Positions 26,083 to 41,089 of a DNA stretch of 41,089 nucleotides are shown piece by piece (position 1 is the first letter of the stretch; every line of letters begins with the position of its first letter). Below the pieces are notes generated by a model that did no database searches, was not told where the DNA came from, and saw only the letters and a list, made by a program, of their open reading frames with translations. The stretch spans positions 1 to 41,089 of the forward strand of contig JAGYMQ010000009.1 in NCBI GenBank assembly GCA_018400535.1, written 5' to 3'. Both the position numbers and the translations under genes were made by a program. Source of the DNA: Candidatus Cloacimonadota bacterium. GTDB taxonomy: Bacteria; Cloacimonadota; Cloacimonadia; Cloacimonadales; TCS61.

Positions 26083-26772
26083 ATGAGAAATTTAAAAATT
26101 ATTAAAGATTATTTATTGCATCCTGCTGGCTCTGTCTTGATCGAGCAAGGTAAAACAAAAGTTATTTGCACTGCGATTATCCAGGATAAAGTTCCTCCTT
26201 TTCTACGGAATGCAGAACCAGCGCAAGGTTGGATCACGGCTGAATACAGCATGCTGCCAGGTGCTACTAATGAAAGATTTCGGCGCGAACGCTCTAAAGT
26301 GACGGGTCGAACTGCAGAAATTCAAAGATTGATCGGCAGAGCTTTGCGAGCTGTCGTTGATCTGACTAAAATTCCTGGCTATCAGATCATCATTGATTGC
26401 GATGTGATCCAAGCTGATGGCGGAACACGGACAGCCTCGATAACTGGCGGTTGCGTCGCTCTTTATGATGCTTTCCAAAAAATGCTGAAAGAAAAATTGA
26501 TCGATGAAAATCCGCTAATCGAATTGGTAGCGGCGATCAGCGTTGGTTTCCAAAATGGCAAAGTGATCGCTGATCTTGATTATGAACAAGACTCACAAGC
26601 TGACGTTGATATGAATATTGTGATGACAGAAAGTGGTGAATTTGTAGAGATCCAAGGCACAGCAGAAGGAAAAACCTTCGATGACAAAATGCTGCAAGAA
26701 ATGTTGAAAAATGCCAGAGAATCGATTGCAAAACTGATCGAGCAGCAGAGAAAATTATATTCTGAAAAATGA
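26083..26772 (+). CDS. rph: Ribonuclease PH
   Basis: This phosphorolytic 3'-5' exoribonuclease trims tRNA precursors and forms a hexamer of the PNPase fold. GSVLIEQGKTKVICTA, AEYSMLPGATNERFRRER, the GRTAEIQRLIGRALRAVVD block and DCDVIQADGGTRTASITGG (phosphate- and metal-binding residues) are all intact, as is the C-terminal EIQGTAEGKTFD. The N-terminus is short: the family's 'R-x-DGR' lead-in is absent and the protein begins about ten residues late. In-frame starts are 26068, 26077 and 26083; I prefer 26083 because GAGG (26070-26073) is nine bases before it. It overlaps selA by four bases (ATGA), so the two are coupled. Confidence 0.93.
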   Translation: MRNLKIIKDYLLHPAGSVLIEQGKTKVICTAIIQDKVPPFLRNAEPAQGWITAEYSMLPGATNERFRRERSKVTGRTAEIQRLIGRALRAVVDLTKIPGYQIIIDCDVIQADGGTRTASITGGCVALYDAFQKMLKEKLIDENPLIELVAAISVGFQNGKVIADLDYEQDSQADVDMNIVMTESGEFVEIQGTAEGKTFDDKMLQEMLKNARESIAKLIEQQRKLYSEK

Positions 26773-28166
26773 AAACAGAAATTAAAATAATGAACGAAGA
26801 ACTAAGAAAATTGCCAGCAGTTGATAAGATATTACAAAGCAGAGAATTACAAGATTCGATCGAAGAATTCGGAAGAGATCTCTGCAAATATGCTATCCAA
26901 ACTATCCTGTCTGAAGAAAGGAATTACATTCAAAAAGGAAATACTTCTTTTTCATCACATCAAAGATTTTCCAAGATAAAATCGATCATAGAAAAAATTA
27001 CTCGATCTTCTTTGAAACCTGTTGTAAATGCTACCGGTATAATTTTACACACGAACCTGGGAAGAGCACCTTTGGGAGAAAAGGTTCTGAAAGAATTACA
27101 ACCAATAATCGAAAATTATTCCAATGTGGAATTTGATTTGGAGCGGGGAAGACGCGGACAACGAAATATTCATATATCAAATCTATTGCAAGCAATTACA
27201 AAAGCAGAAGATGCACTCGTGGTAAATAATAACGCCGCTGCTGTAATGCTTGTGCTGAAAACTTTTGGCGAAGATGCTGAAGTCATTATTTCACGAGGAG
27301 AATTGATCGAGATCGGTGGTTCTTTTCGTATCCCAGATATCATGCGGGCAAGTGGAGCGAAAATGGTCGAGGTTGGCACCACAAATCGCACAAATCTGGA
27401 AGATTATCAGCGCGCGATCACTTCCAATACGAAGATCATTTTGAAGGCACACAAATCAAATTATTTCATTGGCGGTTTCACTGAAGAAACTGAATTGAAA
27501 GAACTGGCAGAACTGGCTCACAAAAACGATCTTCTTTTCTTTTTTGATATGGGTTCAGGTTTGTTGAGAAAACCGGCAAATTTACCTCTCAAAGATGAAC
27601 CTGACGTCTTTTCAGCCTTAGAAAATGGCGTCGATCTTGTCAGTTTCAGTGGCGATAAATTATTGGGCGGACCACAAGCCGGAATCATTTGTGGAAAGAA
27701 AAGATACATTGAAAAATTGGCAAAAGCTCCAATGATGAGAGCATTACGAGTGGGAAAGCTTACGATATCTGCCTTGATTGCCGTGATGCGTTCTTATCTT
27801 CACGATTGTGTTTCTCAGGAAATTCCTCTTTTCCAATTGCTGGCTCGCGAAGAAAATGAACTTGATGATCTTTCTCAGAAAATGGCTGCTGCTTTTAAAA
27901 AATATGAGATAGATTTTTCCGTTAAAAATGATAAGGCAAAAGTGGGCGGCGGTTCACTGCCAAAGCTTGAATTGACCACAAAAGTTATACGATTGGAAAA
28001 ATTGCCAGCAGAACTTTCTGCCAAAGAAATTTTTTTCCAATTACTAAAACTTGAAAAACCTATCTTGACAATTCTCCGTGAGGGCGCAATTCATCTTGAT
28101 TTGAAAACAATATTTGAAAAAGATATTGAATATATTGCTGAAAAAGTTGCGAAGATCTTGTATTAG
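26769..28166 (+). CDS. selA: L-seryl-tRNA(Sec) selenium transferase SelA
   Basis: SelA converts seryl-tRNA(Sec) to selenocysteinyl-tRNA(Sec) with selenophosphate, forming a large homodecameric PLP enzyme. The 465-residue length is standard. The N-terminal LRKLPAVDKIL, the VVNATGIILHTNLGRAPLG block, SNVEFDLERGRRGQR and the PLP lysine K297 in FSGDKLLGGPQAGI are all present. The first ATG overlaps the rph stop (ATGA); an internal ATG at 26790 that gives MNEELRKLP is an alternative start. Its presence means the organism decodes UGA as selenocysteine in some genes; selB, selC and selD are not in this window. See the candidate selenoprotein at 40654-40911. Confidence 0.97.
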   Translation: MKTEIKIMNEELRKLPAVDKILQSRELQDSIEEFGRDLCKYAIQTILSEERNYIQKGNTSFSSHQRFSKIKSIIEKITRSSLKPVVNATGIILHTNLGRAPLGEKVLKELQPIIENYSNVEFDLERGRRGQRNIHISNLLQAITKAEDALVVNNNAAAVMLVLKTFGEDAEVIISRGELIEIGGSFRIPDIMRASGAKMVEVGTTNRTNLEDYQRAITSNTKIILKAHKSNYFIGGFTEETELKELAELAHKNDLLFFFDMGSGLLRKPANLPLKDEPDVFSALENGVDLVSFSGDKLLGGPQAGIICGKKRYIEKLAKAPMMRALRVGKLTISALIAVMRSYLHDCVSQEIPLFQLLAREENELDDLSQKMAAAFKKYEIDFSVKNDKAKVGGGSLPKLELTTKVIRLEKLPAELSAKEIFFQLLKLEKPILTILREGAIHLDLKTIFEKDIEYIAEKVAKILY

Positions 28167-39936: not shown

Positions 39937-40152
39937 TCATTTTCCCGCTCCTAGCCAGATATTTTTGGAAGTGAGATAATGTAACCTTGCAAATCTGTTC
40001 AATTGCCCATTTTCCCAAGATCCAATAAATAGATTTTTCTTATCCCGTACTCATTAATCGAAAATCTGAGAAACATAATCATCACCTCCCCAGATATTTT
40101 CTGAAATATTAAGAATTTCCTTTTTATCGTCAGCTTCGATTCTGCGAATCAT
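39937..40152 (-). pseudogene. GNAT N-acetyltransferase remnant
   Basis: The frame from ATG 40152, which overlaps the stop of the upstream metallopeptidase gene (ATGA), reads MIRRIEADDKKEILNISENI, then WGGDDYVSQIFD, then two consecutive stops TAA TGA (40056-40051), then VRDKKNLFIGSWENGQL, FARLHYL and NIWLGAGK before a third stop. GNAT proteins with an N-terminal 'IR-a---D---I--i---iw-G-DY-p--fdeW' and a following 'vGe--gk-vGfa-l' show the same order. The two stops replace the likely Glu-Trp (GAA to TAA and TGG to TGA, one base each). The acetyl-CoA-binding half is missing. It was evidently once coupled to the metallopeptidase gene. Confidence 0.7.
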
Positions 40153-40697
40153 AATAATCTCAGGTTAAATTTCCTTAAATAATCATTTTTCAGTTTGGGA
40201 TTGGGAACAAATTTTGCCAGCTCCTGCCAGAATTCTGGTTGATGATTTTTGATCTTGGTGTGAACTAACTCGTGCATAATGACATAATCGATCAATTCAA
40301 TAGGGAAATGCAGCAATTTGATATTGAGATTTATGTTATTTTTGGAAGAACAGCTGCCCCACCGAGTTTTTTGCTTGCGGATAGTGCAGCGATTGATTGG
40401 AAAATTGTATTTTTTTGCCAGATAAAATGTTCTATCTTTGAGCGTCTGCTTATTTTTTTCTGTAAAAACGATATTTCGTTTGGTAAATTGTTTTGTCATC
40501 AGATTTTTCTCTTTGAATAAAGCCAATTGTTGATATATCCATTTTTCCTTACTTTGTAGGAACTTACGTGATTCTTCGAGAGGGACAAGCGAGGGACGAG
40601 CTACGACGATTTTGTTTTCATCAAGGATTTTTATATAGATCTTTTTTGAACCTTTATGAATGCGATGAATCACTTTTATTTCTGTGTTTTGTTTCAT
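40149..40697 (-). CDS. YgjP-like (DUF45) metallopeptidase
   Basis: The 182-residue putative zinc metallopeptidase belongs to the SprT/YgjP-like group, whose substrates are unknown. The active site is H142-E143-x2-H146 in MHELVHTKIKNHQPEFW, with H152 and a downstream acidic residue; KTRWGSCSSKNNINLNIKL is the characteristic 'RWGSCS' segment before it. The N-terminal region (WIYQQLALFKEK) is the usual helical half. The ATG has no strong ribosome site and lies 44 bases inside the upstream candidate selenoprotein gene, in another frame, so it probably depends on coupling. Its stop overlaps the start of the GNAT remnant. Confidence 0.88.
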   Translation of the reverse strand: MKQNTEIKVIHRIHKGSKKIYIKILDENKIVVARPSLVPLEESRKFLQSKEKWIYQQLALFKEKNLMTKQFTKRNIVFTEKNKQTLKDRTFYLAKKYNFPINRCTIRKQKTRWGSCSSKNNINLNIKLLHFPIELIDYVIMHELVHTKIKNHQPEFWQELAKFVPNPKLKNDYLRKFNLRLL

Positions 40698-40911
40698 TTC
40701 TATTTTTCTGCTTGTTTTGTTTTTTCCTTCGTAAATTATCTATGAAAGGAGATAGGAGAACAAAGGCGAGAAAAGCTCCGATAAAAACGTTCGACCAAAC
40801 GTTTGAAACAGCGGGTCAGCCACCAGCTCTGCAGCCGATAAATTTATGGTACAACCAACCAATCGCGCCACCGATCATTATAAGCAGAATGTAAAGAAAA
40901 TAAAATTTCAT
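40654..40911 (-). CDS. Candidate selenoprotein: small DUF6132-like membrane protein with in-frame TGA
   Basis: The frame runs from ATG 40911, which shares one base with the preceding stop (TAATG), to TAA 40654-40656. It encodes 85 residues if the single in-frame TGA (codon 32, complement of 40816-40818) is read as selenocysteine. Before it come MKFYFLYILLIMIGGAIGWL (helix 1) and FIGCRAGG; after it PAVSNVWSNVFIGAFLAFVL (helix 2), then a basic tail RRKKQNKQK. Related small membrane proteins, as I recall the DUF6132 family, have GC-x-x-G-x-C-P-x-x-x-N; the TGA falls exactly on the second cysteine, making C27-x4-U32 a likely redox pair. A SECIS-like hairpin follows the TGA (separate entry), and selA is encoded at 26769. 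No pipeline translating TGA as stop would find it. Confidence 0.8.
40785..40804 (-). promoter_or_regulatory. Bacterial SECIS-like hairpin
   Basis: On the minus strand AAACGTT (40804-40798) pairs fully with AACGTTT (40791-40785) around a six-base loop TGGTCG. The loop holds GGUC, as does the E. coli fdhF SECIS loop (AGGUCU), which SelB recognises. The G-G-U lies 20-22 bases after the TGA; in fdhF it is 19-21. The hairpin lies within the coding frame, as bacterial SECIS elements do. Confidence 0.75.
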
Positions 40912-41089
40912 TATTTTATCATCAGCATTTTATTTCTGGCGATTGTTTTTCCATCTGCTTTCAATTGATACAAATATACTCCGCTGCTGACCGATTTATT
41001 GTTCTCATCTCGTCCGTTCCAGGTTTTTGTCATTCTGGATCCTTCGACTGAGCTCAGGGCAGATTTTGTCGAAAGATGAGAACTATGAC
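40911..41089 (-). CDS. C-terminal end of a secreted protein with FlgD/T9SS-like sorting module (5' end outside window)
   Basis: Only the last 58 residues are seen. TWNGRDENNKSVSSGVYLYQ followed by LKADGKTIARNKMLMIK is the classic end of an FlgD-like Ig or type IX 'por' sorting domain (W-G-D--G--v-sGvY-y-l--------kk---ik). The protein is therefore expected to be exported and attached outside the cell. Its stop codon TAA shares a base with the ATG of the candidate selenoprotein, so the two are cotranslated or at least cotranscribed. Just upstream in the frame is a repeat-derived stretch (41029-41080) unlike the rest of the domain. Confidence 0.78.
   Translation of the reverse strand, partial: HSSHLSTKSALSSVEGSRMTKTWNGRDENNKSVSSGVYLYQLKADGKTIARNKMLMIK
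41031..41075. repeat. REP-like palindromic repeat within coding sequence
   Basis: The segment contains TTCGAC (41043-41048), the perfect palindrome TGAGCTCA (41049-41056) and GTCGAA (41068-41073), so it folds as a nested inverted repeat. Sequences of the type 'CATTCTG-GATCCTTCGACTGAGCTCAGG' recur as dispersed elements in many genomes, from memory. Only one copy is in this window, so multiplicity is not shown here. Confidence 0.5.

Follow-up and report, generated by a model that had tools for sequence, protein, structure and literature searches.

Small cysteine-containing membrane proteins of the type DUF6132 (PF19628) are known, for example, from Bacteroidota. The prokaryotic selenoproteins have been catalogued in 2026 into 119 families and subfamilies (PMC13188914), and predictions of transport selenoproteins include the mercuric transport, YeeE/YedE (GUxSG) and SO_0444 Cu/Zn efflux proteins (PMC13188914). 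For the bacterial SECIS hairpin (bSECIS), the published model allows a loop located 16-37 nt past the UGA (PMC13188914). Here, a gene for a DUF6132-type membrane protein is described, in which an in-frame UGA very likely encodes selenocysteine (Sec).

The gene is located in a stretch of 41,089 nt from Candidatus Cloacimonadota bacterium (contig JAGYMQ010000009.1 of assembly GCA_018400535.1), which is called the window in the following. On the minus strand, a frame of 85 codons runs from 40911 to 40654, contains a single in-frame TGA at codon 32 (40816..40818) and is closed by a TAA at 40656-40654, and the plus strand of 40654-40911 contains five in-frame stops. Translation of the TGA as U results in the protein MKFYFLYILLIMIGGAIGWLYHKFIGCRAGGUPAVSNVWSNVFIGAFLAFVLLSPFIDNLRRKK..., in which two hydrophobic segments flank GCRAGGUPAVSN; the TGC codon of Cys27, the partner in a C-x4-U pair, is located at 40831..40833. 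The annotation as a two-helix membrane protein gene with Sec32 is based on the translation with the TGA read through, on homologues and, for the orthologues, on PF19628.

Upstream on the same strand, only the 3′ end of a gene is present (40912..41089), which, judged from the sequence alone, resembles a type IX secretion C-terminal domain. The stop codon TAA of this gene overlaps the ATG at 40911 (TAATG), and both the window and the contig end within the gene. The downstream neighbor is a YgjP-like metallopeptidase gene (40149..40697, minus strand; PF01863, 140 bits), the start of which shares 44 nt with the end of the selenoprotein gene; YgjP homologues adjoin the selenoprotein gene in many relatives. 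An earlier note on the window, made from sequence alone, had proposed a candidate selenoprotein in this interval. The interval proved to be real, the strand, which had been left unstated, is the minus strand, and the single TGA at codon 32, the residues GCRAGG-U-PAVSN and the TAATG coupling to the upstream gene all held. At the contig end, the palindrome CTGAGCTCAG lies within positions 41040-41089, beside the 3′ terminus of the upstream gene; it may be a repeat at which the assembly broke off.

In the comparison with PF19628, the window protein reached 19.1 bits and stayed just below the cut-off of 23.2, whereas a TGA-bearing orthologue (28.4 bits) and two Cys orthologues (30.0 and 31.8 bits) passed it. 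The assignment to DUF6132 in the earlier note could be confirmed for the orthologues, with the window protein itself slightly under the cut-off. The core GCxxGxCPxxxN, to which the earlier note had aligned the protein without gaps and with the TGA on the second Cys, is supported by an alignment of 31 sequences (A4), in which neither Cys27 nor the Sec/Cys column varies.

Homologues were found in 21 of 59 genomes when the own genome and its relatives were searched, in 27 of 107 when the search covered the order and in 31 of 125 when it covered the phylum. The 31 matches of the phylum-wide search comprise 22 with a TGA in the same column (Sec forms), distributed over 13 genera, eight with TGC or TGT at this position (Cys forms; G002, G005, G020, G026, G036, G103, G112, and G113) and one (G108) that was not assigned to either form. 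All 22 stop codons in the Sec column are TGA, and neither TAA nor TAG was found there. A search of genome contigs revealed one Cys relative only, from Kryptonia (L024), and Cys is likewise present in the Sec column of a homologue of the G002 Cys form on a Riemerella plasmid, which is annotated as DUF6132. No relative was found among the viral contigs searched. A weak DUF6132-like match (H5; 36.7% identity) is located at 1259-1405 of MT839126.1, an unannotated 4.9 kb record named 'Bacteriophage sp.' from human faeces.

Pooled over pairs of Sec forms, the codons +13 to +24 past the TGA show a pS of 0.72 vs. a pN of 0.24. Therefore, the downstream part is translated, and the comparison shows that it is under purifying selection at the protein level. 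These data bear on the explanation that the gene is a pseudogene or contains a sequencing error, with the TGA as a nonsense mutation. In its favor, the standard code leaves only a fragment of 31 codons before the TGA. However, the same-column TGA in 22 genomes of 13 genera, together with the selection on the downstream half, cannot result from a local defect, and this explanation is all but excluded.

The putative SECIS element is the hairpin AAACGTTT-GGTC-GAACGTTT at 40785..40804 on the minus strand. It has a stem of 8 bp and a GGTC loop located 19 nt past the UGA, fits the geometry of the published bSECIS model (PMC13188914) and is the longest SECIS-like hairpin among the TGAs of the window with at least 25 open codons on each side. 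Folding of the 54 nt past the UGA, which the earlier note had suggested for the first 50 bases, resulted in an MFE of -9.8, and the comparison with dinucleotide shuffles (z = 0.18) was uninformative on its own. For this reason, tests based on synonymous recoding and covariation were used instead. The 27-nt fold alone gave -5.6 for the window, and most relatives also fell short of -7.5.

Compared with synonymous recodings of the same codons, drawn with the codon usage of the window, the hairpin of the window has a clearly lower folding energy (z = -4.05, p = 0.001). The mean folding z of the Sec forms is -2.25, with 14 of 22 at p<0.05, vs. a mean of -0.03 for the Cys forms, for which G103 is the sole exception. 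A hairpin follows every TGA and carries GG in its loop in all 22 Sec forms, mostly as GGUC and about 19 nt from the UGA in a common register; its consensus is AACGUUU-GGUC-AAACGUU (DNA: AACGTTT-GGTC-AAACGTT). Among the Cys forms, it is missing from all except G103. In 20 Sec forms (A3), 90.7% of the stem cells are paired vs. 20-59% when the partners are slid. Furthermore, 10 cells are changed on both sides, compared with a mean of 2.5 in shuffled data, and none of 500 shuffles reached this number. The hairpin of G003 did not fold in the 27-nt test, and its stem can be paired with G-U wobbles.

As an alternative, the palindrome AACGTTTGGTCAAACGTT might serve as a DNA-binding site or merely follow from the encoded peptide NVWSNV, and in either case would only resemble a SECIS element. 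This is supported by the near-identical peptides (NVWSNV, NVWSSV, NAWSSI) that most copies encode. However, the variants AATGCTTGGTCAAGCATT, AATGCGTGGACCAGCATT, GCCCCTGGTCAGGGGC and GATCCGCGGATCGGATC keep the stem and the loop but not the sequence, the energy is below that of synonymous recodings, and the older Cys forms have no hairpin. In G044, the GG of the loop is built from CGG-ATC (Arg-Ile) and not from TGG-TCA (Trp-Ser), from which it follows that the RNA and not the peptide is conserved. G018 and G079 use different stems, so that peptide and sequence vary around a constant structure. The palindrome explanation is thus considered very unlikely.

The genome contains the complete machinery for Sec incorporation. 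In the window itself, selA for the L-seryl-tRNA(Sec) selenium transferase is located at 26769..28166 on the plus strand (TIGR00474, 537 bits with a cut-off of 268), as the earlier note had recognized, and selB (369 bits), selD and a tRNA-Sec with the anticodon UCA were also found in the genome. The selD gene (L091, contig 6, 6835-7761, minus strand) contains an in-frame TGA of its own (KAAGUAGK, continued as AAGUAGKVSP), which is followed by the hairpin AAGTCC-GTC-GGACTT; as inferred from the sequence, SelD is likely a second selenoprotein of this genome. For formate dehydrogenase, the genome yielded no more than a weak match, which lacks an in-frame stop.

In the set of 59 genomes, a tRNA-Sec above the cut-off was detected in 15 of the 17 genomes with a TGA form, and the other two are 86% and 73% complete. 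Since the Sec machinery is present in most relatives, the co-occurrence of TGA form and tRNA-Sec is weak in this set (p = 0.08). In total, the TGA-form genomes without a tRNA-Sec above threshold are G001, G003, and G079, which are only 73-86% complete. One of these, G079 (80% complete), contains a divergent TGA form (L082:3263-3469) with the perfect hairpin GCCCCT-GGTC-AGGGGC, and its family f10 is mostly devoid of tRNA-Sec. The absence of the tRNA from G079 is possibly due to the incomplete genome or to a stray contig.

A further explanation is ordinary readthrough or a reassignment of TGA to a residue other than Sec, and it is true that the frame is open under any reading of the TGA. On the other hand, of the 25 ORFs in the window that reach 180 aa or more, 15 are terminated by TGA, which is therefore not reassigned. 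Moreover, the residue that replaces Sec in the homologues is Cys and not Trp or Gly, and both a covarying bacterial SECIS element and the full Sec machinery are present. This makes the explanation very unlikely.

Due to the conserved UGA, the conserved and covarying SECIS element, the purifying selection past the UGA, the Cys homologues and the complete Sec machinery, the gene is very likely a genuine bacterial selenoprotein gene with Sec at UGA32 (probability about 0.95). This figure rests on comparative evidence, without protein or selenium data, and covers the selenoprotein claim only, not the relay discussed below. The overall interpretation of the earlier note is supported, including its SECIS-like hairpin after the TGA, which holds by the comparative evidence and synonymous recoding and not by the shuffle fold. 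Three observations had been named that would refute it, and all turned out in its favor: Cys is indeed found in the Sec column of orthologues, TAA and TAG are absent from this column in all relatives, and no Sec form has lost the hairpin or the downstream frame.

A natural replacement of Sec by Cys is provided by G103 (L078:7984-8163, also L039), which contains TGT instead of TGA, with one codon deleted before the TGT. Its SECIS stem is intact and the loop is changed from GGTC to GGGC. As known from fdhF of E. coli, the loss of the loop U is expected to disturb the recognition by SelB. The synteny is the same as in relatives with the Sec form, with a 216-aa gene and a lysC-like gene upstream, and the other TGA-column homologues of its genus (g11) are Sec forms. 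G103 thus likely represents a recent replacement, in which Cys has already taken the place of Sec and the decay of the RNA signal is still under way, making the order of events in the loss of Sec visible.

A structural model, computed from an alignment of two sequences, predicts helices at residues 2-25 and 38-82 and places C27 and U32 in the intervening loop, at moderate pLDDT and a pTM of only 0.33. The two membrane helices flanking the C27-x4-U32 loop, one per half of the protein as previously assumed, are consistent with alignment A4 and remain a prediction in view of the low pTM. Because of the strongly basic C-terminal tail, both ends are inferred to be cytoplasmic, with the Cys/Sec loop facing the periplasm; this topology is derived from charge alone.

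Indications of the function come from the genomic neighborhood of the Cys homologues. The G002 homologue is located beside two thioredoxin-like genes and one glutaredoxin-like gene, those of G020 and G026 beside a ferredoxin-like gene, the Kryptonia homologue behind a rhodanese gene and the Riemerella DUF6132 gene directly behind a gene for a CxxC heavy-metal-associated domain. Because of these neighbors, a membrane thiol/selenol relay is favored as the mechanism, although this inference has no better than an even chance of being correct. According to the comparison, the SECIS hairpin, with its loop 19 nt past the UGA, directs SelB and tRNA-Sec to UGA32, where Sec is very likely inserted in place of the Cys of the homologues. 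In the inferred relay, the Cys27/Sec32 pair would cycle between thiol/selenol and selenenyl sulfide and shuttle electrons from one partner protein to another, the partners being of the thioredoxin or rhodanese type. With Sec instead of Cys, this exchange would proceed faster or be less prone to over-oxidation. For the redox or selenium/sulfur-handling role, as suggested in the earlier note, these neighbors provide some support, but it is still an inference.

The main alternative to the relay accepts the selenoprotein and assumes a small membrane carrier, in which the Sec/Cys residues bind soft metals or chalcogens (Cu, Hg, selenide or sulfane sulfur). It is favored by the positions of the Riemerella and Kryptonia genes behind the heavy-metal and rhodanese genes, respectively, and by the precedent of the predicted transport selenoproteins (PMC13188914). 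Against it, other Cys homologues are located near thioredoxin- and glutaredoxin-like genes, which fits a redox function, and a profile comparison with the YeeE/YedE proteins of the relatives gave a probability of only 2.3%. The carrier is regarded as less likely than the relay. The neighbors of the Sec forms (asd, lysC, a 216-aa protein, YgjP, GNAT, MFS and nitroreductase, several of them named by eye) point to no redox pathway and do not decide between relay and carrier. In many neighbor loci (L056-L081), the conserved protein of about 216 aa is encoded about 650 bases upstream and preceded by lysC- and asd-like genes; no Pfam match was obtained for the tested 140 N-terminal residues.

Models for many selenoprotein families are available in NCBIfam. 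A search of the window protein and all 31 aligned members against NCBIfam resulted in no meaningful match and in neither a selenoprotein nor a DUF6132 model, and DUF6132/PF19628 is absent from the 119-family catalogue (PMC13188914). In the open-access literature searched, neither a Sec form of DUF6132 nor a selenoprotein study of Cloacimonadota was found; the sole paper matching DUF6132 was irrelevant, and a report that was not seen is possible. Within these sources, the statement of the earlier note that no selenoprotein of this family was known holds. The Sec form of DUF6132 is therefore likely a selenoprotein family new to the 2026 catalogue, as far as the open-access literature allows this conclusion, and would add one more family to it.

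Furthermore, the use of Sec provides a first functional handle on DUF6132, since it singles out residue 32 as the reactive one, with Cys27 as its likely partner. Gene callers that read TGA only as a stop will shorten these genes or overlook them altogether. In a bolder reading, DUF6132 is a thiol/selenol relay or chalcogen carrier of bacterial membranes that is widespread but has been overlooked, with Sec as the usual state in the phylum that was repeatedly lost to Cys with a later decay of the SECIS loop. This reading is put forward tentatively and is rather more doubtful than probable; if true, DUF6132 would represent a minimal selenol device embedded in the membrane, and its members would document how Sec is replaced by Cys in nature.

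Among the known systems, YeeE/YedE (PF04143) resembles the window protein as a membrane protein with a GC/U-x-S-G-like motif. However, YeeE/YedE is a much larger transporter and carries its Sec in the G-U-x-S-G position, whereas the Sec of the window protein is located five residues past the Cys of GCxxG. Kinship of the two was rejected on the basis of the above hhalign probability, and PF04143 matched neither the window protein nor any other protein of its genome (G000). With DUF6132, the family of the window protein shares the length class, the two helices and the core GCxxGxCPxxSN, and it differs in that the second Cys is replaced by Sec in 22 genomes. From the selenoproteins of the SelB/bSECIS type, like SelD and formate dehydrogenase, the window protein is distinguished by its very small size, its integral membrane nature and the lack of a thioredoxin fold, but it has in common with them the UGA, the GG/GU loop 19 nt past it, a stem of 6-8 bp and the interchange of Sec and Cys.
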